From the NCBI RefSeq assembly GCF_022340605.1, contig NZ_JAJDNQ010000027.1:1-64000 (forward strand): a stretch of DNA of 64,000 nucleotides, given 5' to 3'. The position numbers and the translations under genes were made by a program. Shown here piece after piece: positions 9,814-28,904 of this stretch (position 1 is its first letter; the number at the start of each line of letters is the position of its first letter). Source of the DNA: Thiohalocapsa sp. (GTDB taxonomy: Bacteria > Pseudomonadota > Gammaproteobacteria > Chromatiales > Chromatiaceae). The notes beneath the pieces are model-generated. The model saw nothing but the letters and a program-made list of their open reading frames with translations. It was not told the origin of the DNA and did not search any database.

Positions 9814-10361
9814 CAGGGCAGGCTGATGCGCCGCATGATGCCGTCTTTCAGCTTCCAGTGCTTGATGCCGGCGGCGATGTGCAGCACCAGCAGCGCCGCC
9901 ACCGCGAGCGCGGCGTAGCCGTGGTAGGTGAAGAGCTGCTCGCTGAGGGCCTTGTTCTCGCCGACGAAGCCAGGCAGGGTCCAGTCGAAGAACTGCACCG
10001 GGTGGCCACCCGCGGCGGTCGCCAGCCAGCCGCCGATGGGCAGGCCGATCAGCAGGATGTACAGCAGCAGCAGAGTTCCCCCGGAGATGACCTTCTCCAG
10101 CCCCGTGAGCGGCTTCTCGTAGGCGGGCGGCGGTGACAGGCGCCGCAGCACCAGCCGCAGCACCATCAGGATCAGGAGCAGGACGCCGAAGCTCTTGTGG
10201 TACATGAAGAGCTGGCCGGTGGTTTCCTTCCCCAAGGTGTCCACGATGCCGTCGCCGAGGCGCCAGAAAACGAAGCCGATGGCCAACAGGCCGAAGACGA
10301 CAAGGGCAATGATCCAGTGCAGCAGGCGCTGGAGGAAGGTATAGCGATAGGCTGAAGCCAT
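9813..10361 (-). CDS. Cytochrome b561-type di-haem membrane protein
   Basis: The 182-residue product has four membrane spans with histidines placed as in bacterial cytochrome b561 (YTFLQRLLHWIIALVVFGLL near the start; YHKSFGVLLLILMVLRLVLRR; YILLIGLPIGGW; YHGYAALAVAALLVLHIAAGIKHW). Such proteins carry two b haems in the inner membrane and move electrons between quinol and periplasmic acceptors, including superoxide. The ATG at 10361 has AAGGAG 6 nt upstream; the frame extends further upstream without a ribosome site. It overlaps the downstream EEP gene by one base. Confidence 0.9.
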   Translation of the reverse strand: MASAYRYTFLQRLLHWIIALVVFGLLAIGFVFWRLGDGIVDTLGKETTGQLFMYHKSFGVLLLILMVLRLVLRRLSPPPAYEKPLTGLEKVISGGTLLLLYILLIGLPIGGWLATAAGGHPVQFFDWTLPGFVGENKALSEQLFTYHGYAALAVAALLVLHIAAGIKHWKLKDGIMRRISLP

Positions 10362-12369: not shown

Positions 12370-12455
12370 GTAGGTCGGGTTAGCGATCGCGTAACCCGAC
12401 TATCCAAGGATCACCGACGCCCATCGTCGGGTTACGCCGCGCTAACCCGACCTAC
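12370..12455. repeat. GTAGGTCGGGTTAGCG inverted-repeat element
   Basis: GTAGGTCGGGTTAGCG at the left end is matched by its reverse complement CGCTAACCCGACCTAC at the right end, and each arm also pairs internally with CGTAACCCGAC or GTCGGGTTACG. The element lies in a 422-bp gap with no other feature; 12259-12369 and 12456-12680 hold nothing recognisable. Confidence 0.85.
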
Positions 12456-13400: not shown

Positions 13401-13582
13401 GTAGGTCGGGCCGACACAAGGAGGCCCGACGCGGTGCCCGCACGCAGTATAAGGCCAGTTTCGGTGCCGGTGTCGTGGTCGGGGTGTCGGGCTTCGCTAA
13501 CGCTCAGCCCGACCTACGCTCAGCCCGACCTACGCTCAGCCCGACCTACGCTCAGCCCGACCTACGCGCTCAGCCCGCCCCA
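13401..13582. repeat. GTAGGTCGGGCCGAC element with 16-bp tandem expansion
   Basis: Opens with GTAGGTCGGGCCGACACAAG and closes with several AGCCCGACCTAC ends. Inside it the 16-bp unit GCTCAGCCCGACCTAC is repeated four times (13502-13565), plus a partial copy. It belongs to the family also seen at 14539-14623, 22504-22587 and 25296-25380, and the right end has been amplified here. Confidence 0.85.
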
Positions 13583-14538: not shown

Positions 14539-14623
14539 GTAGGTCGGGCCGACGCAGGAGGCCCGACACGCAAACGGTAATGCCAACCGGCGCGTCGGGC
14601 TTCATTCCTCAGCCCGACCGACG
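14539..14623. repeat. GTAGGTCGGGCCGAC element, copy 2
   Basis: Begins GTAGGTCGGGCCGACGCAGG and ends CAGCCCGACCGACG, flanking an 18-nt centre. It lies in the 428-bp gap between gph and trpE. No trp leader peptide with adjacent Trp codons was seen in that gap. Confidence 0.85.
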
Positions 14624-22712: not shown

Positions 22713-22728
22713 TGTCGCATGTACGACA
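22713..22728 (+). promoter_or_regulatory. NifA-type upstream activator site
   Basis: TGTCGCATGTACGACA has the TGT-N10-ACA form of NifA binding sites and is itself a TGTCG/CGACA palindrome. It lies about 70 bp upstream of the -24/-12 promoter of nifU, the usual NifA distance. Confidence 0.65.
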
Positions 22729-22795
22729 AGGCCGAAGGCTTGCGCCAGCGAGAACAATACACTCTCGATCAGCGGCTTACGCACGCTCCCCGCGC

Positions 22796-22811
22796 TGGCT
22801 CAAATGTTGCT
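22796..22811 (+). promoter_or_regulatory. Sigma-54 promoter of nifU
   Basis: TGGCTCAAATGTTGCT has GG at -24 and GC at -12 with exactly 10 nt between and the TTGC element intact. Transcription would start about 115 nt before nifU. Together with the NifA-type site it marks nifU as nitrogen-fixation regulated. Confidence 0.7.
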
Positions 22812-22937: not shown

Positions 22938-23852
22938 ATGTGGGATTATTCCGAGACTGTCAAAGAACATTTCTTCAACCCGCGCAACGCCGGCGCCGTC
23001 ACCGACGCCAACGCCATCGGCGAGGTGGGTTCGCTCTCCTGCGGCGACGCGCTGCGCCTGACTCTCAAGGTCGACCCCAGCACCGAGACCATCCTGGAGG
23101 CCGGCTTCCAGACCTTCGGCTGCGGCTCGGCGATTGCGTCCAGCTCGGCGCTGACTGAGATCATCAAGGGCATGACCCTGGATGACGCGCTCAACGTCAG
23201 CAACCAGGACATCGCCGACTACTTGGAAGGCCTGCCGCCCGAGAAGATGCACTGCTCGGTGATGGGCCGCGAGGCGCTGCAAGCGGCAGTGGCCAACTAT
23301 CGCGGCGAGGAGTGGAAGGACGACCACGAGGAAGGCGCTCTGGTGTGCAAGTGCTTCGCCGTGGACGCCGTGCTCATCGAGGACACCATCCGCGCGAACA
23401 GCCTCAGCACCGTCGAAGAGGTGACCAACTACACCAAGGCCGGCGGCGGCTGCTCCGCTTGCCATGAGGGCATCGAGGAAATCCTCACCCGCGTGCTCGC
23501 GGAGCAGGGCAAGACCTTCGACCCCAACGCCGCGCCCCCGCCGCCGGTGGGCAAGCCGAAGCTCGGCACCCTGGCGCGCATCCGCCGCATCGAGAGCGCC
23601 ATCGAGGCCATCCGGCCGAACCTGCAGCGCGATCACGGCGACGTGGAGCTGGTGGACGTCGATGGCAAGAACGTCTACGTGAACATGACCGGCGCCTGTG
23701 CCGGCTGCCAGATGGCATCGACGACACTGGAAGGCATCCAGCAGCGCATCGTCGAGGATCTCGGGGAGTTCGTGCGGGTGCTGCCTGCGCCAAAGGGCCC
23801 ACTAGGGCAGGGCCAAGCGCCGAGCGCCCAAGGCCAACACGCCCCGGCCTGA
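22938..23852 (+). CDS. nifU: NifU Fe-S cluster assembly scaffold (three-domain)
   Basis: Builds Fe-S clusters on its cysteines from sulfur delivered by NifS and passes them to nitrogenase proteins. All three domains are present: an IscU-like part with Cys35, Cys62 and Cys106; a central ferredoxin-like [2Fe-2S] part with Cys137, Cys139, Cys172 and Cys175; and a C-terminal Nfu part with Cys254 and Cys257. In the first two domains, numbering and spacing agree with the well-studied NifU of Azotobacter. The 304-residue length is normal. GGAG lies 7 nt before the ATG. nifS follows 107 bp downstream. The tail is rich in Gly, Gln and Pro, without known function. Confidence 0.96.
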
Positions 23853-23959
23853 GCCACGCGCGAGCCCGCCGGCGCTCGGCCCTCCGGCCCTTAGCCCTGC
23901 CGGCGCCGCATTGATTCCCGACACCGCAGCCCAGCAGCCACCAGCAAGAGAGAATCCCC

Positions 23960-25198
23960 ATGTCGCCCCATCCGCAAGCGCCGGCCCCAGGCATCTATCT
24001 GGACAACAACGCCACCACCATGGTCGACCCGGCCGTGGTGGAAGCGATGCTGCCCTACTTCACCGAGCAGTTCGGCAACCCGTCGTCCATGCACCAGTTC
24101 GGCGACCGCGTCGGCCGGGCGCTGAAGACCGCCCGGCAGCAGGTGCAGGCGCTGCTCGGCGCCGAGTTGGACTCGGAGATCGTGTTCACCTCCTGCGGCA
24201 CCGAGTCCGATTCCACCGCCATCCTGTCCGCGCTCAAGGCGCAGCCCGAGCGCAAGGAGATCATCACCACGGTCGTCGAGCACCCGGCCGTGCTCGCGCT
24301 CTGCGAGCACCTGGAGAAAGAAGGCTATAAGGTCCACTACCTGACGGTGGACAAGAAGGGCCGACTCGACATGCGTCAGTACGAGGACCTGCTGTCGAAC
24401 AAGGTCGCCATCGTTTCGGTGATGTGGGCCAACAACGAGACCGGCACCCTGTTCCCGGTGGAGGAAATGGCCGAGCTCGCACGCTCCGCCGGCATCATGT
24501 TCCACACCGATGCGGTGCAGGCGGTCGGCAAGGTGCCCATCGACCTCAAGAACACCGCCATCGACATGCTCTCGCTGTCCGGCCACAAGCTGCACGCCCC
24601 GAAAGGCGTCGGCGTGTTGTATCTGCGCCGTGGCACCCGCTTCCGCCCGCTGCTGCGCGGCGGCCACCAGGAGCGCGGGCGGCGCGCCGGCACCGAGAAC
24701 AGCGCCTCCATCGTCGGCCTCGGCAAGGCCTGCGAGCTGGCCCTGGCACACATGGAGGACGAGAAGACCACCGTCCGCACCCTGCGTGACCGGCTGGAAA
24801 AGGGCATCCTCGCCGCCGTGCCCAACTGCTTCGTCACCGGCGACCCGTCCAGCCGTCTGCCCAACACCGCCAACATCGCCTTCGAGTACATCGAGGGCGA
24901 GGCCATCCTGCTGCTGCTGAACAAGCTCGGCATCGCGGCGTCCAGCGGCTCCGCCTGCACCTCCGGCTCGCTGGAGCCGAGCCACGTCATGCGCGCCATG
25001 GACATCCCCTTCACCGCGGCGCACGGCACCACGCGCTTCTCCCTGTCGCGCTACAACACGATGGAGGAGATCGACCGCGTCATCGAGGCGGTGCCACCCA
25101 TCGTCGCGCAACTGCGCAAGCTCTCGCCCTACTGGGACGCCGCCGCGAACGCGCCGGTGGCCGAGCCCGAGCAGGCGTTCCAGCCCGCGTACGCTTGA
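23960..25198 (+). CDS. nifS: Cysteine desulfurase NifS
   Basis: A PLP enzyme that takes sulfur from cysteine as a persulfide for NifU. Residues 12-20 read IYLDNNATT, the NifS/IscS start. The PLP-binding lysine is Lys210 in SGHKLHAPKG. The persulfide cysteine is Cys333 in SSGSACTSGSLEPSHVM, the short loop typical of group I enzymes. The 412-residue length fits NifS. Its position right after three-domain NifU and the nif-type promoter makes NifS more likely than housekeeping IscS. Confidence 0.96.
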   Translation: MSPHPQAPAPGIYLDNNATTMVDPAVVEAMLPYFTEQFGNPSSMHQFGDRVGRALKTARQQVQALLGAELDSEIVFTSCGTESDSTAILSALKAQPERKEIITTVVEHPAVLALCEHLEKEGYKVHYLTVDKKGRLDMRQYEDLLSNKVAIVSVMWANNETGTLFPVEEMAELARSAGIMFHTDAVQAVGKVPIDLKNTAIDMLSLSGHKLHAPKGVGVLYLRRGTRFRPLLRGGHQERGRRAGTENSASIVGLGKACELALAHMEDEKTTVRTLRDRLEKGILAAVPNCFVTGDPSSRLPNTANIAFEYIEGEAILLLLNKLGIAASSGSACTSGSLEPSHVMRAMDIPFTAAHGTTRFSLSRYNTMEEIDRVIEAVPPIVAQLRKLSPYWDAAANAPVAEPEQAFQPAYA

Positions 25199-25295
25199 GC
25201 CGCCCGGCTTCTGCCGGATTTCACGCGACGACGGCAACGGACGACGGGCGCAACGGCAAAGACGTTGCGCTCGCCGCCACCCCAGCCGCGCCCCT

Positions 25296-25380
25296 GTAGG
25301 GCGGGCCGACGAAGGAGGCCCGACAATCAGGCGCTTGCGACGCGCACGCTGTCGGGCCTCGTGCCTCGGCCCGACCTACG
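25296..25380. repeat. GTAGGTCGGGCCGAC family, copy 4
   Basis: Starts GTAGGGCGGGCCGACGAAGG and ends TCGGCCCGACCTACG. It occupies part of the 523-bp gap after nifS. The left and right ends are near-perfect inverted complements. Confidence 0.85.
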
Positions 25381-25646
25381 ACGGATTCTTGCCCGATCTC
25401 TCCGCGCCACGACTGGAGACCACGGACCCGCCGCCCGCAAATACGCGTCGCACCGTGCAAACGGTATGCACCAGAATCGCGCAAAACCAACCGTTTTTGT
25501 CGAAACAGCGCACCGCAGGTGCCCCGCCGGTGCTCTGCGCAGAACCGCTCCGCGCTTGCCAGAACCAAGGAAAGCCATTTTTTATCAACGGTTTCCGCGC
25601 ACACGGCAGCGCCGGACGCGGAATCTCAGCCGCACCGACCACCGGC

Positions 25647-25662
25647 TGGCACGCGCTTCGCA
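25647..25662 (+). promoter_or_regulatory. Sigma-54-like promoter before the small-gene pair
   Basis: TGGCACGCGCTTCGCA has a perfect -24 element (TGGCACG) and GC at -12 with exactly 10 nt between GG and GC. The -12 side reads TCGCA instead of TTGCA. It lies 60 bp before the first small gene. No TGT-N10-ACA site was found in the 200 bp upstream; a GTGCA-N7-TGCAC palindrome near 25455-25471 is the nearest dyad. Confidence 0.6.
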
Positions 25663-25721
25663 TAACATCCAGCAGGCCCTCGGCCCCCGAGTTGCGACCT
25701 TTCCACGCGGAGGAAACGACC

Positions 25722-25922
25722 ATGCGCAACCCCTACGACCCGACCCTGGACCCTGCCGGTTACGCTGACTGCGTGCTCGACTCCAGCGACGACTACGAGC
25801 CCTATGGCTACGCGCCTCCGGAACTACAGTTGGTCGACATCGCGCAGCAGCCACGGAACCGGGCGTTCGACCACGTCATCGAGGCGCAACTCCTCGCGCA
25901 CAGCGGCATGGTGGGGTGCTAA
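25722..25922 (+). CDS. Small acidic protein, unknown
   Basis: Unrecognised, 66 residues. It begins MRNPYDPTLDPAGYADCVLD, is acidic and tyrosine-rich in the middle (SSDDYEPYGYAPPE) and ends in a helix-like stretch (RAFDHVIEAQLLAHSG). GGAGG lies 8 nt before the ATG, a strong start. Two cysteines are at residues 17 and 66. The next small gene begins 2 nt after its stop, so the two are surely translated together. The upstream sigma-54-like promoter and the nearby nifUS genes suggest a role under nitrogen limitation; this is inference only. Confidence 0.7.
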   Translation: MRNPYDPTLDPAGYADCVLDSSDDYEPYGYAPPELQLVDIAQQPRNRAFDHVIEAQLLAHSGMVGC

Positions 25923-25924
25923 GC

Positions 25925-26065
25925 ATGAACCGTTACCGCAATCCGCCCGCCCCGCGGGCCTTGGCCGTCGCGCTGCCGCGCCAATCGTCGGACCACGCCG
26001 CACGGGCCGCCATTACCCTCGCCGCGACGCTGCTCGTCGCGAGCGTGCTGCCCATGTTCCTCTGA
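25925..26065 (+). CDS. Tiny single-span membrane protein, unknown
   Basis: Unrecognised, 46 residues. A basic N-terminal half (MNRYRNPPAPRALAVALPRQ) is followed by one hydrophobic segment (AAITLAATLLVASVLPMFL), so it should sit in the inner membrane. It starts 2 nt after the stop of the preceding small gene. A hairpin, CGGGGTGG (26071-26078) with CCGCCCCG (26082-26089), follows 5 nt after its stop without a T-run and may end the transcript. Confidence 0.6.
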   Translation: MNRYRNPPAPRALAVALPRQSSDHAARAAITLAATLLVASVLPMFL

Positions 26066-26395
26066 CCAGCCGGGGTGGCAGCCGCCCCGCCCGATCGGGG
26101 GGACTGTCCGCCCCAGATTGCGCCGCATGTTGCGTCCAAACCTGCGCCTCAATCCGCGCATCGACCGGCGCCGACTTCCGCGGGACACGTTCCCACCCGG
26201 TCTTGATCCACCAATCTCAATCCACCGAATCGAGGCGGCGCCCGATTCCAGCCACGCGCATCGTCAGGCAGCACTCATGGCCCCGCCTCCTGTGTTGGCT
26301 CCAGGATTCTCTATACGAGAATGCGGGAGGCGACTTTCGGCCATGGGAGCGGCTTGTAGCGGAGCGCCGAGATTCGACGCCCGGCGCAAGACTCG
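26066..26395. other. Gene-free stretch
   Basis: It contains the hairpin noted above and a REP-like CATGGGAGCGGCTTG at about 26340. No gene is supported. Confidence 0.4.
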
Positions 26396-26857
26396 TCAGC
26401 CAGCCAAACCGCTCGCAAGACTGGCGTGGAAGATCGCTTTGTGGACATCACCGAGGCTCAGCATGCCGACCAGCTTGCCGCCCTCTGCCACCGGGATGCG
26501 GCGGAAATTGTGGCGCACCATGACCGTGGCTGCGCGCAGCACGTGCATGTCCGGGTCGACGGTGAACGGGTTGGGCGTCATCAGATCGGCAACGGTGAGC
26601 CCGAGGACTTCCTTGTAGCGGCCCATCTCCTTGTCGTAGTCCACCGAGCGCATGCCCTCGGCCATGACGCTCTCCAGCTTCGGGAATAAGCTGTGCAGCA
26701 AATCCCGCTCTGCGATGATCCCGACCAGCGCCCCGGATTCGTCCACCACGGGTAGCCCCTGAAACCGATACAGCGTCATCAGCGACGCGACTTCCATGAT
26801 CTTCGTACCCGGAGTGACGGTGCGCACGAATGTGTTCATCGCGTCTCTGACTTTCAT
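26396..26857 (-). CDS. Two-CBS-domain protein
   Basis: The 153-residue product consists of two CBS domains: residues about 5-60 (VRDAMNTFVRTVTPGTKIMEVASLMTLYRFQGLPVVD, GIIAERDLL) and about 90-145 (VADLMTPNPFTVDPDMHVLRAATVMVRHNFRRIPV, GMLSLGDVHKAI). Such stand-alone pairs bind adenine nucleotides and report energy state to partners that are not evident here. The ATG at 26857 is fixed by GAGGAGG 8 nt upstream; the longer frame lacks a start signal. Confidence 0.93.
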   Translation of the reverse strand: MKVRDAMNTFVRTVTPGTKIMEVASLMTLYRFQGLPVVDESGALVGIIAERDLLHSLFPKLESVMAEGMRSVDYDKEMGRYKEVLGLTVADLMTPNPFTVDPDMHVLRAATVMVRHNFRRIPVAEGGKLVGMLSLGDVHKAIFHASLASGLAG

Positions 26858-26977
26858 TGGGAGAGCCTCCTCAAGGTCCTGAAATTGCCGCAATGGATCC
26901 GTCAGTATAGCTCCTGCGCGGCCAACGTACGCCGTCGACGGCAAGTCGACGGCGGCGTCCCGCCGCCGATCGCGCGG

Positions 26978-27230
26978 TCACTGACGCCACGACTGCTCAG
27001 CAGTGACGATGCCGCCGTTTCCGATCCCACTCGGCATGCCGATCGCCACAAAGCCCTTTTTGACATCGCGATCGCCCGCAGACAGGTCATATGCGGTCAT
27101 TGTCGATCTAAGCTATGGCCGATGATCATGACCCGTTCCGCGCCCCGCTCCTTCAGAAAGGCGATGCCCGCAGCAAAGCGCGGGACACTTCGTCAATAAG
27201 CGCGGCATATTCATCGGGCTTGGCGTTATT
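26978..27230 (-). pseudogene. Remnant of an alpha/beta-hydrolase gene
   Basis: On the minus strand three frames together give a protein-like path: KPDEYAALIDEVSRALL, then after a frame change GIAFLKERGAERVMIIGHSL (a nucleophile elbow of the GHS type), then after another change DVKKGFVAIGMPSGIGN and a stop at 26980-26978. The order and spacing fit an alpha/beta hydrolase C-terminal half, broken by frameshifts and a stop. A second protein-like fragment upstream (27312-27477, ending GKVAANIARGVGVHPN) has no recognised family. The rest of the 856-bp gap to 27713 shows no gene. Confidence 0.5.
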
Positions 27231-27713
27231 TCAGGAGGATCGCATCTGCAACGACAACCTACGCCATCCGCGGGGCGGGAGGCTTGTTCGCAGCGAATAC
27301 ACGACTTGCTGTCAGTTGGGATGCACGCCGACGCCGCGCGCGATGTTTGCGGCCACTTTGCCCTCCGGGTCTTCCGCTTCAGTGAAAATGCCATGGAACG
27401 CGTGGTCGGCGTAGCCTATCGGTCGGCACCAGATGCCTCGGACCACGTTGCCGGCGGCGTCTTTGGCAGCCCCGCTGCGCGCTGTTGGGCGTGGACCAAC
27501 TGCTCGATACTGCCTTGGCCTTCGGTCGTTCTTGGCCGTTGCCGAGGTTGCCGCTGCCGGTGGTGATCGGTCCCGATAGGTCGGACGGGGCGCACCGACA
27601 ATGAATGCGGGAACGCCCGAACCTCTGCCGATGCTACCATGGCGGGTTATCCGGAATGCTGCCGCCGCCCCGACGGCAGACCGTCGACTGCGCAGAGACG
27701 AAGAAGCAAACTC

Positions 27714-28904
27714 ATGATCTCCACCAGACCAGATCGACTGCCGCCCGCGGCCCGATCGCCGCGGGGTCTGTTGCTGCCGGTGATCCTCGCCGGCCTAATC
27801 CTCGCGACCTCCGCGGCCCAATCCCAAACCTCGCTGCCAAGCCTGCCGAGCCAGGCCGACAGCGCCAAGGTCCAGACCGTGCTCGGCGAGCAGCGACCGC
27901 GCTGGGCGGTCGTTGAGCGCCGCTCCGTCGGCGGCAACACCACCGTCGGCGGGACCGTGGTGCCGATGCGGGAGATTACCTTCACGGCGCAGATGCCGGG
28001 CAACGTGGAGCAGATCGCCGGCAACGAGGGCGACTTCTTCAAGCGGGGCGCGGTACTGGTGACGCTCGACCCGTCCGCGCTGCGCGCCAAGCGCCAGGCG
28101 GCTATTGCGCAGATCACCAACGCCCAGGCGGCCTACCGCAACGCCGAGGTCCAGTTCCAGCGTGAGCGCCGGGACCCGACCCCGACCCAGGGCAACATGA
28201 TGAGCCAGATCATGCCGATGCCGTTCTTCGGCGACAACGAAGACAGCGACATCACTCGTGAGGCGAACCTGCACCAGTACGGCACCCAGATCGAGCAGGC
28301 ACGTGGCGCGCTCGTGGCGGCCCAGGCCCAGCTGCGCGAGATCGACGCCCAACTCGATGACGTGAACAGCATCGCCCCGTTCGATGGCTACATCACCGAG
28401 AAGCACGCCAACGCCGGCGACACGGTGCAGCCGGGCCAGCCGCTGCTGAGCTTCGCCGATGTCGGCCGGCTGCAAGTCCAGGCCGACGTGCCGACGCGGC
28501 TGTCGGCGCCGCTGAATCCGGGCTTTATGACCCGCGTCAAGCTCGATGATTCGGCCGGCACCATCGTCGCCGCCCGCGTCGCGCAGGTCTTCCCGATGGC
28601 GGACCCCACCCGCCACACGGTCCGCGTCAAGCTCGACCTGCAGCCCAACGCCCCGGCCAAGGCCGGCATGTACGCCGAGGTGCTGATCCCGCAGCCGGGC
28701 AGCGACCAGGGCGCCCTACCCGTGATCCCGGTCTCGGCCATCGTCCGACGCGGCGGGCTGCCAATGGTCTATGTCCTCGACGAAGAAGACCAGCCCCGAC
28801 TGCACCTGCTGCGCCTCGGCGAGCAGTGGGGCGACACCGTCAGCGTGCTGACCGGCCTGCAGGGCGGCGAGCGCATCCTGCTCGAGCCACCGGCCGCTCG
28901 CTAA
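27714..28904 (+). CDS. RND efflux periplasmic adaptor (HlyD/MFP family)
   Basis: The membrane-fusion protein links the inner-membrane RND pump to an outer-membrane channel. The product (396 residues) has a signal or anchor (GLLLPVILAGLILATSAAQ), a first biotinyl-lipoyl half (GNVEQIAGNEGDFFKRGAVLVTLD), a helical hairpin (residues about 125-210) and the second lipoyl half (SIAPFDGYITEKHANAGDTVQPGQPLLSFAD). A beta-barrel part follows (RVAQVFPMADPTRHTVRVKLDL). The ATG at 27714 begins just before the signal. Its pump follows 313 bp downstream. Confidence 0.93.
   Translation: MISTRPDRLPPAARSPRGLLLPVILAGLILATSAAQSQTSLPSLPSQADSAKVQTVLGEQRPRWAVVERRSVGGNTTVGGTVVPMREITFTAQMPGNVEQIAGNEGDFFKRGAVLVTLDPSALRAKRQAAIAQITNAQAAYRNAEVQFQRERRDPTPTQGNMMSQIMPMPFFGDNEDSDITREANLHQYGTQIEQARGALVAAQAQLREIDAQLDDVNSIAPFDGYITEKHANAGDTVQPGQPLLSFADVGRLQVQADVPTRLSAPLNPGFMTRVKLDDSAGTIVAARVAQVFPMADPTRHTVRVKLDLQPNAPAKAGMYAEVLIPQPGSDQGALPVIPVSAIVRRGGLPMVYVLDEEDQPRLHLLRLGEQWGDTVSVLTGLQGGERILLEPPAAR

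Follow-up and report, generated by a model that had tools for sequence, protein, structure and literature searches.

Downstream of nifU and nifS in a 64,000-nt stretch of Thiohalocapsa sp. DNA (the window), two small reading frames, ORF1 and ORF2, follow a sigma-54-like promoter sequence. We wanted to know whether ORF1 is a gene, whether it belongs with the nif genes beside it, and what its product might do. The original prediction described a TGGCACG promoter element, a GGAGG ribosome-binding site, an acidic 66-aa protein and, 2 bases past its stop codon, a 46-aa ORF2 with a single hydrophobic segment, and it stated that neither peptide was recognized. All of these elements are present (Table 1); ORF2 does contain one hydrophobic segment, and neither peptide has a match in Pfam. 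The TGGCACG sequence (25647-25653) bears out this part of the predicted -24/-12 promoter, but the -12 element does not conform, reading TTCGC and not TTGC. The ORF1 product has a pI of 4.1 and a net charge of -8. The NtrC-like box at 25467-25483 was absent from the earlier description.

Table 1. Features of the ORF1 locus and its context (positions in the window).
Feature	Positions	Strand	Support
ORF1, 66-aa acidic small protein, DYEPYG family (P0001)	25722..25922	+	Conserved protein sequence
Shine-Dalgarno GGAGG, 8 nt 5' of the ATG	25709..25713	+	Adjacent leader kept in G141
-24/-12 sigma-54-type promoter TGGCACG-CGCT-TCGCA	25647..25662	+	Like element in 16/16 loci
NtrC-type upstream activating box TGCACCAGAATCGCGCA	25467..25483	+	12/14 consensus positions
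ORF2, 46 aa, basic/hydrophobic, possible single-span peptide, doubtful gene	25925..26065	+	Same-length ORF in G140
G+C-rich hairpin 3' of ORF2, possible terminator	26067..26116	+	Best 50-nt MFE -32.2
NifA-type box (22713) and sigma-54 promoter (22796) of nifU; context	22713..22810	+	Counterparts in G140 and G141
nifU (start re-assigned, probably ATG 22938) and nifS (23960-25198); context, outside the ORF1 unit	22938..25198	+	

Relatives of ORF1 were found in 16 genomes, the window's own counted (window, G141, G140, L014, L015, L016, G191, G341, G278, G479, G270, G523, G525, G529, G551 and G552); the members with a G number all belong to the window's class. A single-sequence search of 147 genomes of the order matched G141 (79% identity) and G140 (63% identity, residues 19-66), five genomes with E values of 0.05-0.1 being left out. 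Four loci came from a pattern-based scan of a genome collection, namely that of G141, which is a Thiohalocapsa MAG, and those of three remoter MAGs (L014-L016) labelled Thiotrichales or Gammaproteobacteria. Profile searching of 369 genomes of the class added G191, G341, G278 and G479; matches in G397 and G414 (E about 0.003), which lie within frames of 623 and 523 aa, were left out. A profile search of 369 class genomes centred on G479 added G270, whose match (E 0.0047, degraded core) was retained because its gene matches, in the corresponding position, that of its congener G551. In family f125, 7 of 40 genomes contain a relative according to the profile search, and G523, G525, G529, G551 and G552 were added from there, while a profile search of 398 genomes of the phylum returned the window's genome only. 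The DYEPYG family is thus sparse (5 of 369 class genomes in the G479-centred search, the weak G270 match included, and 3 of 147 in the order), which would be unexpected if its members regulate a core enzyme.

The absence of a synonymous-site bias had been named beforehand as the observation that would speak against these frames. For ORF1 the bias is present: the window and G141 copies differ at 10, 7 and 22 first, second and third codon positions, with a dN of 0.146, a dS of 0.611 and a dN/dS of about 0.24. As far as sequence comparison goes, this shows that the pair is under purifying selection as a protein, and ORF1 is almost certainly a real gene. The relatives are 48-67 aa long. In alignment A3, M1, S21 and E26 are invariant and Y28 is nearly so; the core is an S-x-DDYEPYG segment, and the C-terminal half is variable. 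The N-terminal segment of most members reads NYSxF-[VI]-x-[LM]...S-[DE]-[DE]-[YF]-E-P-Y-G. G140 was left out of this alignment and kept in the genome and promoter counts; its ORF1 (L017, about 9914-10110, reverse strand) has a one-base frameshift relative to the window copy, for which assembly error and decay cannot be told apart. G529 has two diverged tandem copies (L053 6470-6904), one of which lacks the full DYEPYG core; the first copy was used for the promoter counts. An AlphaFold2 model based on 16 sequences (pLDDT 62.9, pTM 0.18) is mostly unstructured, with a short helix near residues 11-15 and another at the C-terminus; being of low confidence, it is weak evidence for disorder.

None of the 16 members has a match in Pfam or the PDB, and the NCBIfam matches are at chance level. 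Three spellings of the DYEPYG motif occur in none of the openly licensed papers searched, and no such small-protein family is named among the matches listed, as excerpts, from the openly licensed literature on NtrC, nitrogen starvation, RpoN or Thiohalocapsa. ORF1 is apparently a member of an undescribed small-protein family that is spread over several bacterial lineages. Several other relations were considered and rejected. The PHROGs family phrog_4484 matched 4 of the 16 members with a best E of 0.011, and in the two members inspected singly the match spans 12-15 residues; two more PHROGs families matched one member each (E 0.2-0.3). All were taken as chance. A phage or plasmid origin was dismissed, P0001 having no match in phages or plasmids; eight stretches of viral contigs fit the search pattern, none of them encoding a relative. 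An RNA gene was likewise discarded, positions 24000-28000 of the window giving only two Rfam matches, both to miRNA families and under their gathering scores.

The case of ORF2 is different. It was found in the window and in G140 alone, and G141 has no such ORF. The 46-aa ORF at the equivalent place in G140 shares 16 of 46 residues with ORF2, compared with 6.7 +/- 2.1 for shuffled residues, and has its hydrophobic stretch where ORF2 has one, but identities in the other five frames already reach 11-14, so that the excess over shuffled residues hardly holds against other frames. The differences between the two copies are spread evenly over the codon positions (23/20/23). From these comparisons, ORF2 is doubtful as a gene, and the idea of a two-gene, membrane-attached unit is not supported, since ORF2 rests on one relative and lacks clear selection at the protein level. 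The hairpin after ORF2 has a z value of -2.1 against 40 mononucleotide shuffles and no T run. Strong hairpins (z <= -2 against 40 mononucleotide shuffles) are present 3' of the small gene in 9 of the 15 loci scored, G141, G191, G479, G552, G525 and G529 being below this threshold; a hairpin is also present in G140, which was not scored. This is consistent with a short transcript that ends just past ORF1 or, in the window and G140, past ORF2.

Taken alone, the promoter of the window is not beyond chance. With one mismatch allowed, TGGCAY-N5-TTGC has 7 matches in the window, compared with 8.9 expected from shuffles, and the exact TGGCACG-N4-TTGC occurs three times in the whole genome, never at ORF1, as often as its reversed control. 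What lifts the promoter above chance is its conservation across loci. In all 16, an element TGGCAY-N5-[TA][TC]G, a pattern drawn up after the sites had been viewed, is located 52-104 nt 5' of the start codon, and it has been kept though the genes occupy unrelated genomic places. The summed best match to TGGCACGNNNNTTGCW, the textbook sigma-54 consensus, is 159, against 116 +/- 3.1 in dinucleotide shuffles (maximum of 500 shuffles, 126), and it is 81 against 57.5 +/- 2.2 when one locus per lineage is taken. These results support the predicted promoter as probably of sigma-54 type. Singly, three of the 16 loci remain over 0.05 (P = 0.12 for G523, 0.14 for G552 and 0.16 for G525). Of the GG and GC, ten bases apart, that mark a -24/-12 promoter, the GG is present in all 16 elements, and the -12 dinucleotide is GC in the window, G141, G140 and G341 and GT or GA in the other 12. 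The G141 site included in the 16-locus count is TGGCACAGCCTTCGCT, the automatic best -24/-12 match falling on a neighbouring site, and for G525 the best-scoring site against the textbook consensus lies at a different place from the site counted.

The box upstream of this promoter resembles the NtrC box, for which passages of PMC8743547 give the consensus TGCACCAnnnTGGTGCA and those of PMC4987338 a similar one; in NtrC regulon genes, the same passages place the box upstream of a -24/-12 promoter. In the window it lies 180 nt 5' of the -24 element, and the 21-nt run around it, GCACCAGAATCGCGCAAAACC, is identical in G141. When up to 230 nt 5' of the promoter were searched at the 16 loci, the best matches summed to 175 of 224, compared with 134 +/- 3.3 in shuffles (maximum of 300 shuffles, 143); with one locus per lineage (8 loci), the score was 91 against 66.8 +/- 2.2. 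The true half-site ranks first among 400 permutations, itself included (175, with 148 for the next), and without any motif being supplied, GGTGCA/TGCACC is the most enriched 6-mer, present at 11 of 16 loci where 1.9 were expected. Singly, the box is over 0.05 at four of the 16 loci (P = 0.12 for G140, 0.06 for G341, 0.51 for G552 and 0.23 for G529). A joint filter (promoter score of at least 9, box of at least 11, 60-260 nt apart), run over the 16 locus stretches, marks the small gene in 10 of them and, in the 64-kb window, the ORF1 gene alone; it also marks the gpmI side in G278, two genes in G523 and one spot within an RND gene of G191. ntrC is above the NCBI cut-off in 14 of the 16 member genomes, that of the window included, and G525 and G552, which are incomplete assemblies, have ntrC fragments at contig edges. 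As a positive control, the glnA genes of the window genome and G141, the two among 12 fetched ntrC stretches in which the motif search found glnA, have a TGGCACGGAAACTGC promoter with an NtrC-type box some 200-220 nt upstream of it. We conclude that the ORF1 gene is very probably under NtrC/sigma-54 control. The claim that nitrogen limitation governs this locus is thereby probably right, through a conserved NtrC-type box; the nif neighbourhood, on which it had partly been based, does not bear it.

A small protein activated by NifA and serving nitrogenase or Fe-S cluster assembly would account for the position of ORF1 directly after nifUS in all three member genomes of the window's genus, each of which also has nifH. 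However, NifU/NifS matches flank only 3 of the 16 loci, all from this one genus (some flanks are short), and no match reaches the nifH cut-off in 11 of the 16 member genomes. nifH does not follow the small gene: 5 of the 16 members have it over the cut-off, as do 10 of 41 non-members. Within family f125, it is over the cut-off in none of the 7 members but in 7 of the 33 non-members, and in the window's genus it is also present in three of the four genomes that lack the small gene. The NifA box motif, TGT-N10-ACA, occurs before none of the 16 small genes, where 1.06 occurrences were expected by chance, so that this count alone argues weakly. nifU in turn has its own NifA-type box, TGTCGCATGTACGACA, and its own sigma-54 promoter, TGGCTCAAATGTTGC; G140 and G141 both have equivalents of the two, similarly spaced, so that the nifU unit and the small-gene unit bear different activator boxes. 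Both nifU elements overlap or sit within the longest nifU ORF, which probably begins too early. The nif neighbourhood is incidental and ORF1 is not a nif gene; a place in the nif regulon is very unlikely. It is about as unlikely that a different sigma-54 activator, for example PrsR from the PEP-CTERM/exosortase system, controls ORF1, which would remove it from the nitrogen genes. Member genomes do contain many sigma-54 activator-like genes, and PrsR is over the cut-off in 6 of the 10 tested, that of the window included, but no match passes the cut-off in the other four, of which two are single-contig assemblies, and 7 of 16 non-members have PrsR too, for which reasons a PrsR/PEP-CTERM regulon was rejected; moreover, the upstream box is the NtrC palindrome. 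It is also improbable that ORF1 encodes the precursor of a ribosomally made, modified peptide (RiPP) produced under nitrogen shortage, with a conserved leader and a variable core. The conserved N-terminus and hypervariable C-terminus, the tandem copies in G529 and a KamA-like radical SAM gene (below cut-offs) close to the copy in G552 would suit such a precursor, but the strongest motif, DYEPYG, falls in the conserved and not the variable part, and in the flanks examined no maturase or exporter is kept beside the gene across lineages.

Inverted GTAGGTCGGGC repeats, which are REP/MITE-like, are present in the window at 25296-25379 (as 25296/25369), 12370-12455, 13401-13565 and 14539-14622, one pair being located between nifS and the small gene. 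With one mismatch allowed, the repeat has 12 matches in the window, compared with 1.5 expected.

We favour the reading, at a probability of about 0.6, that ORF1 encodes an NtrC/sigma-54-induced, mostly disordered regulator of carbon/nitrogen flux that acts by binding a partner. Phosphorylated NtrC and sigma-54 RNA polymerase would switch on the transcription unit of ORF1 when nitrogen is scarce. The product would be a small, acidic, mostly disordered protein of the cytosol, in which the conserved N-terminal segment may serve as a binding motif for a conserved housekeeping partner, the variable C-terminus being a tail. Much as the cyanobacterial regulators PirC, PirA and the glutamine synthetase (GS) inactivating factors do, the protein would by this binding tune some enzyme or regulator where carbon and nitrogen metabolism meet. 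Induction under nitrogen limitation, disorder and partner binding are what we infer; that the protein is a small intracellular protein-binding regulator seems somewhat better than an even bet. If it is a regulator induced by starvation, a carbon/nitrogen switch would become testable in Gammaproteobacteria outside the enterics, with a member list, a 25-residue motif to mutate and GpmI as first candidate partner ready to hand. NtrC is a textbook regulator, yet the members of this family belong to no Pfam family and have only chance-level NCBIfam matches.

PirC is small in size. According to passages of PMC12077085, it acts in the nitrogen-starvation response by inhibiting cyanobacterial iPGAM, an enzyme whose gene lies beside the small gene in two orders. 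The two systems appear to differ in their control: 2-oxoglutarate releases PirC from PII (same passages), whereas control of the small gene, judging by its upstream sequences, would be transcriptional. PirA and the GS inactivating factors are likewise small proteins under a global nitrogen regulator; passages of PMC8092223 describe PirA as binding PII, the inactivating factors as regulating glutamine synthetase, and both as accumulating on ammonium upshift when NtcA repression is relieved. The small gene, in contrast, carries activator boxes, from which a rise in its expression would be predicted when ammonium is short. For none of PirC, PirA and the GS inactivating factors is a relation seen in the family searches, in which the 16 members had no Pfam and only chance-level NCBIfam matches, the libraries' models of these proteins being unchecked. 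glnA and glnK-amtB share with ORF1 the NtrC box 5' of a -24/-12 promoter, a layout equal to that before glnA of the window genome; these genes encode enzymes, transporters and PII, whereas ORF1 encodes a small protein without a Pfam match.

No neighbour is common to all lineages in the flanking stretches examined. In G278, the small gene is divergent from gpmI (TIGR01307, over the cut-off), and sigma-54-like sites face the two genes, with a single NtrC box between these sites at 10255; in G552, a genome of a different order, it stands tail to tail with gpmI, which has TGGCATGTTCTTTGAA 69 nt 5' of its start and two 10-of-14 NtrC-like boxes further upstream. GpmI is our best single lead to a partner, since gpmI lies next to the small gene in two orders, where it has sigma-54/NtrC-like elements of its own. 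The small gene is also tail to tail with glgB-glgA in G551 and, judged by protein starts, in the same order in G270. From these neighbours, one could suppose a specific, PirC-like inhibitor or modulator of GpmI that diverts carbon to glycogen under nitrogen shortage, a reading for which the inhibition of iPGAM by PirC gives a precedent. We consider it unlikely: gpmI is adjacent in only 2 of 16 genomes, its co-activation under nitrogen limitation is ill-suited to simple inhibition, and the small protein matches no known family beyond chance level. In addition, cyanobacterial iPGAM carries a 17-aa loop (passages of PMC12077085), whereas the G278 GpmI, compared by eye with two solved bacterial enzymes in an alignment holding no cyanobacterial one, shows no sign of an insertion at that place; the GpmI proteins of G278 and G552 have a short C-terminal tail. 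GpmI is accordingly no better than a doubtful target, and the same small chance applies to the wider idea of an NtrC-driven family, PirC-like in several proteobacterial lineages, made on starvation and binding phosphoglycerate mutase or another step of glycolysis or glycogen metabolism so that carbon goes to storage; if so, a small-protein carbon/nitrogen switch would have arisen convergently outside cyanobacteria.

Other neighbours deserve mention, and the gpmI, glg and nitrogen-gene neighbours could all be chance among many contexts. The small gene of G523 precedes a formate/nitrite-transporter-like gene (below NCBI cut-offs) and is near a cyanase gene (over the cut-off), each of which has its own sigma-54 site and NtrC-like box (L049 10500-10582 and 13794-13887); this locus may be a small nitrogen-assimilation island. 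The RND efflux and membrane-fusion genes that neighbour the small gene at five loci were rejected as a link, being paralogues with about 21-29% identity between lineages. Near the small gene in G341 and G529, which belong to two families, stand a gene for an unrecognised 371-aa protein and, after it, an Asparaginase_2/beta-aspartyl-peptidase-like gene (L046 3662-5782 and L053 7201-9348); neither copy of the 371-aa protein has an NCBIfam match, the L053 copy has no Pfam match either, and we attach no functional meaning to the pair, nor to a 173-aa protein encoded near the small gene in both G278 and G479. In the three related MAGs L014-L016, a divergent gene for a small Cys-rich protein is located beside the small gene (L014 4341-4856, L015 4338-4715 and L016 4347-4790) and stands ahead of RND-efflux-like genes.
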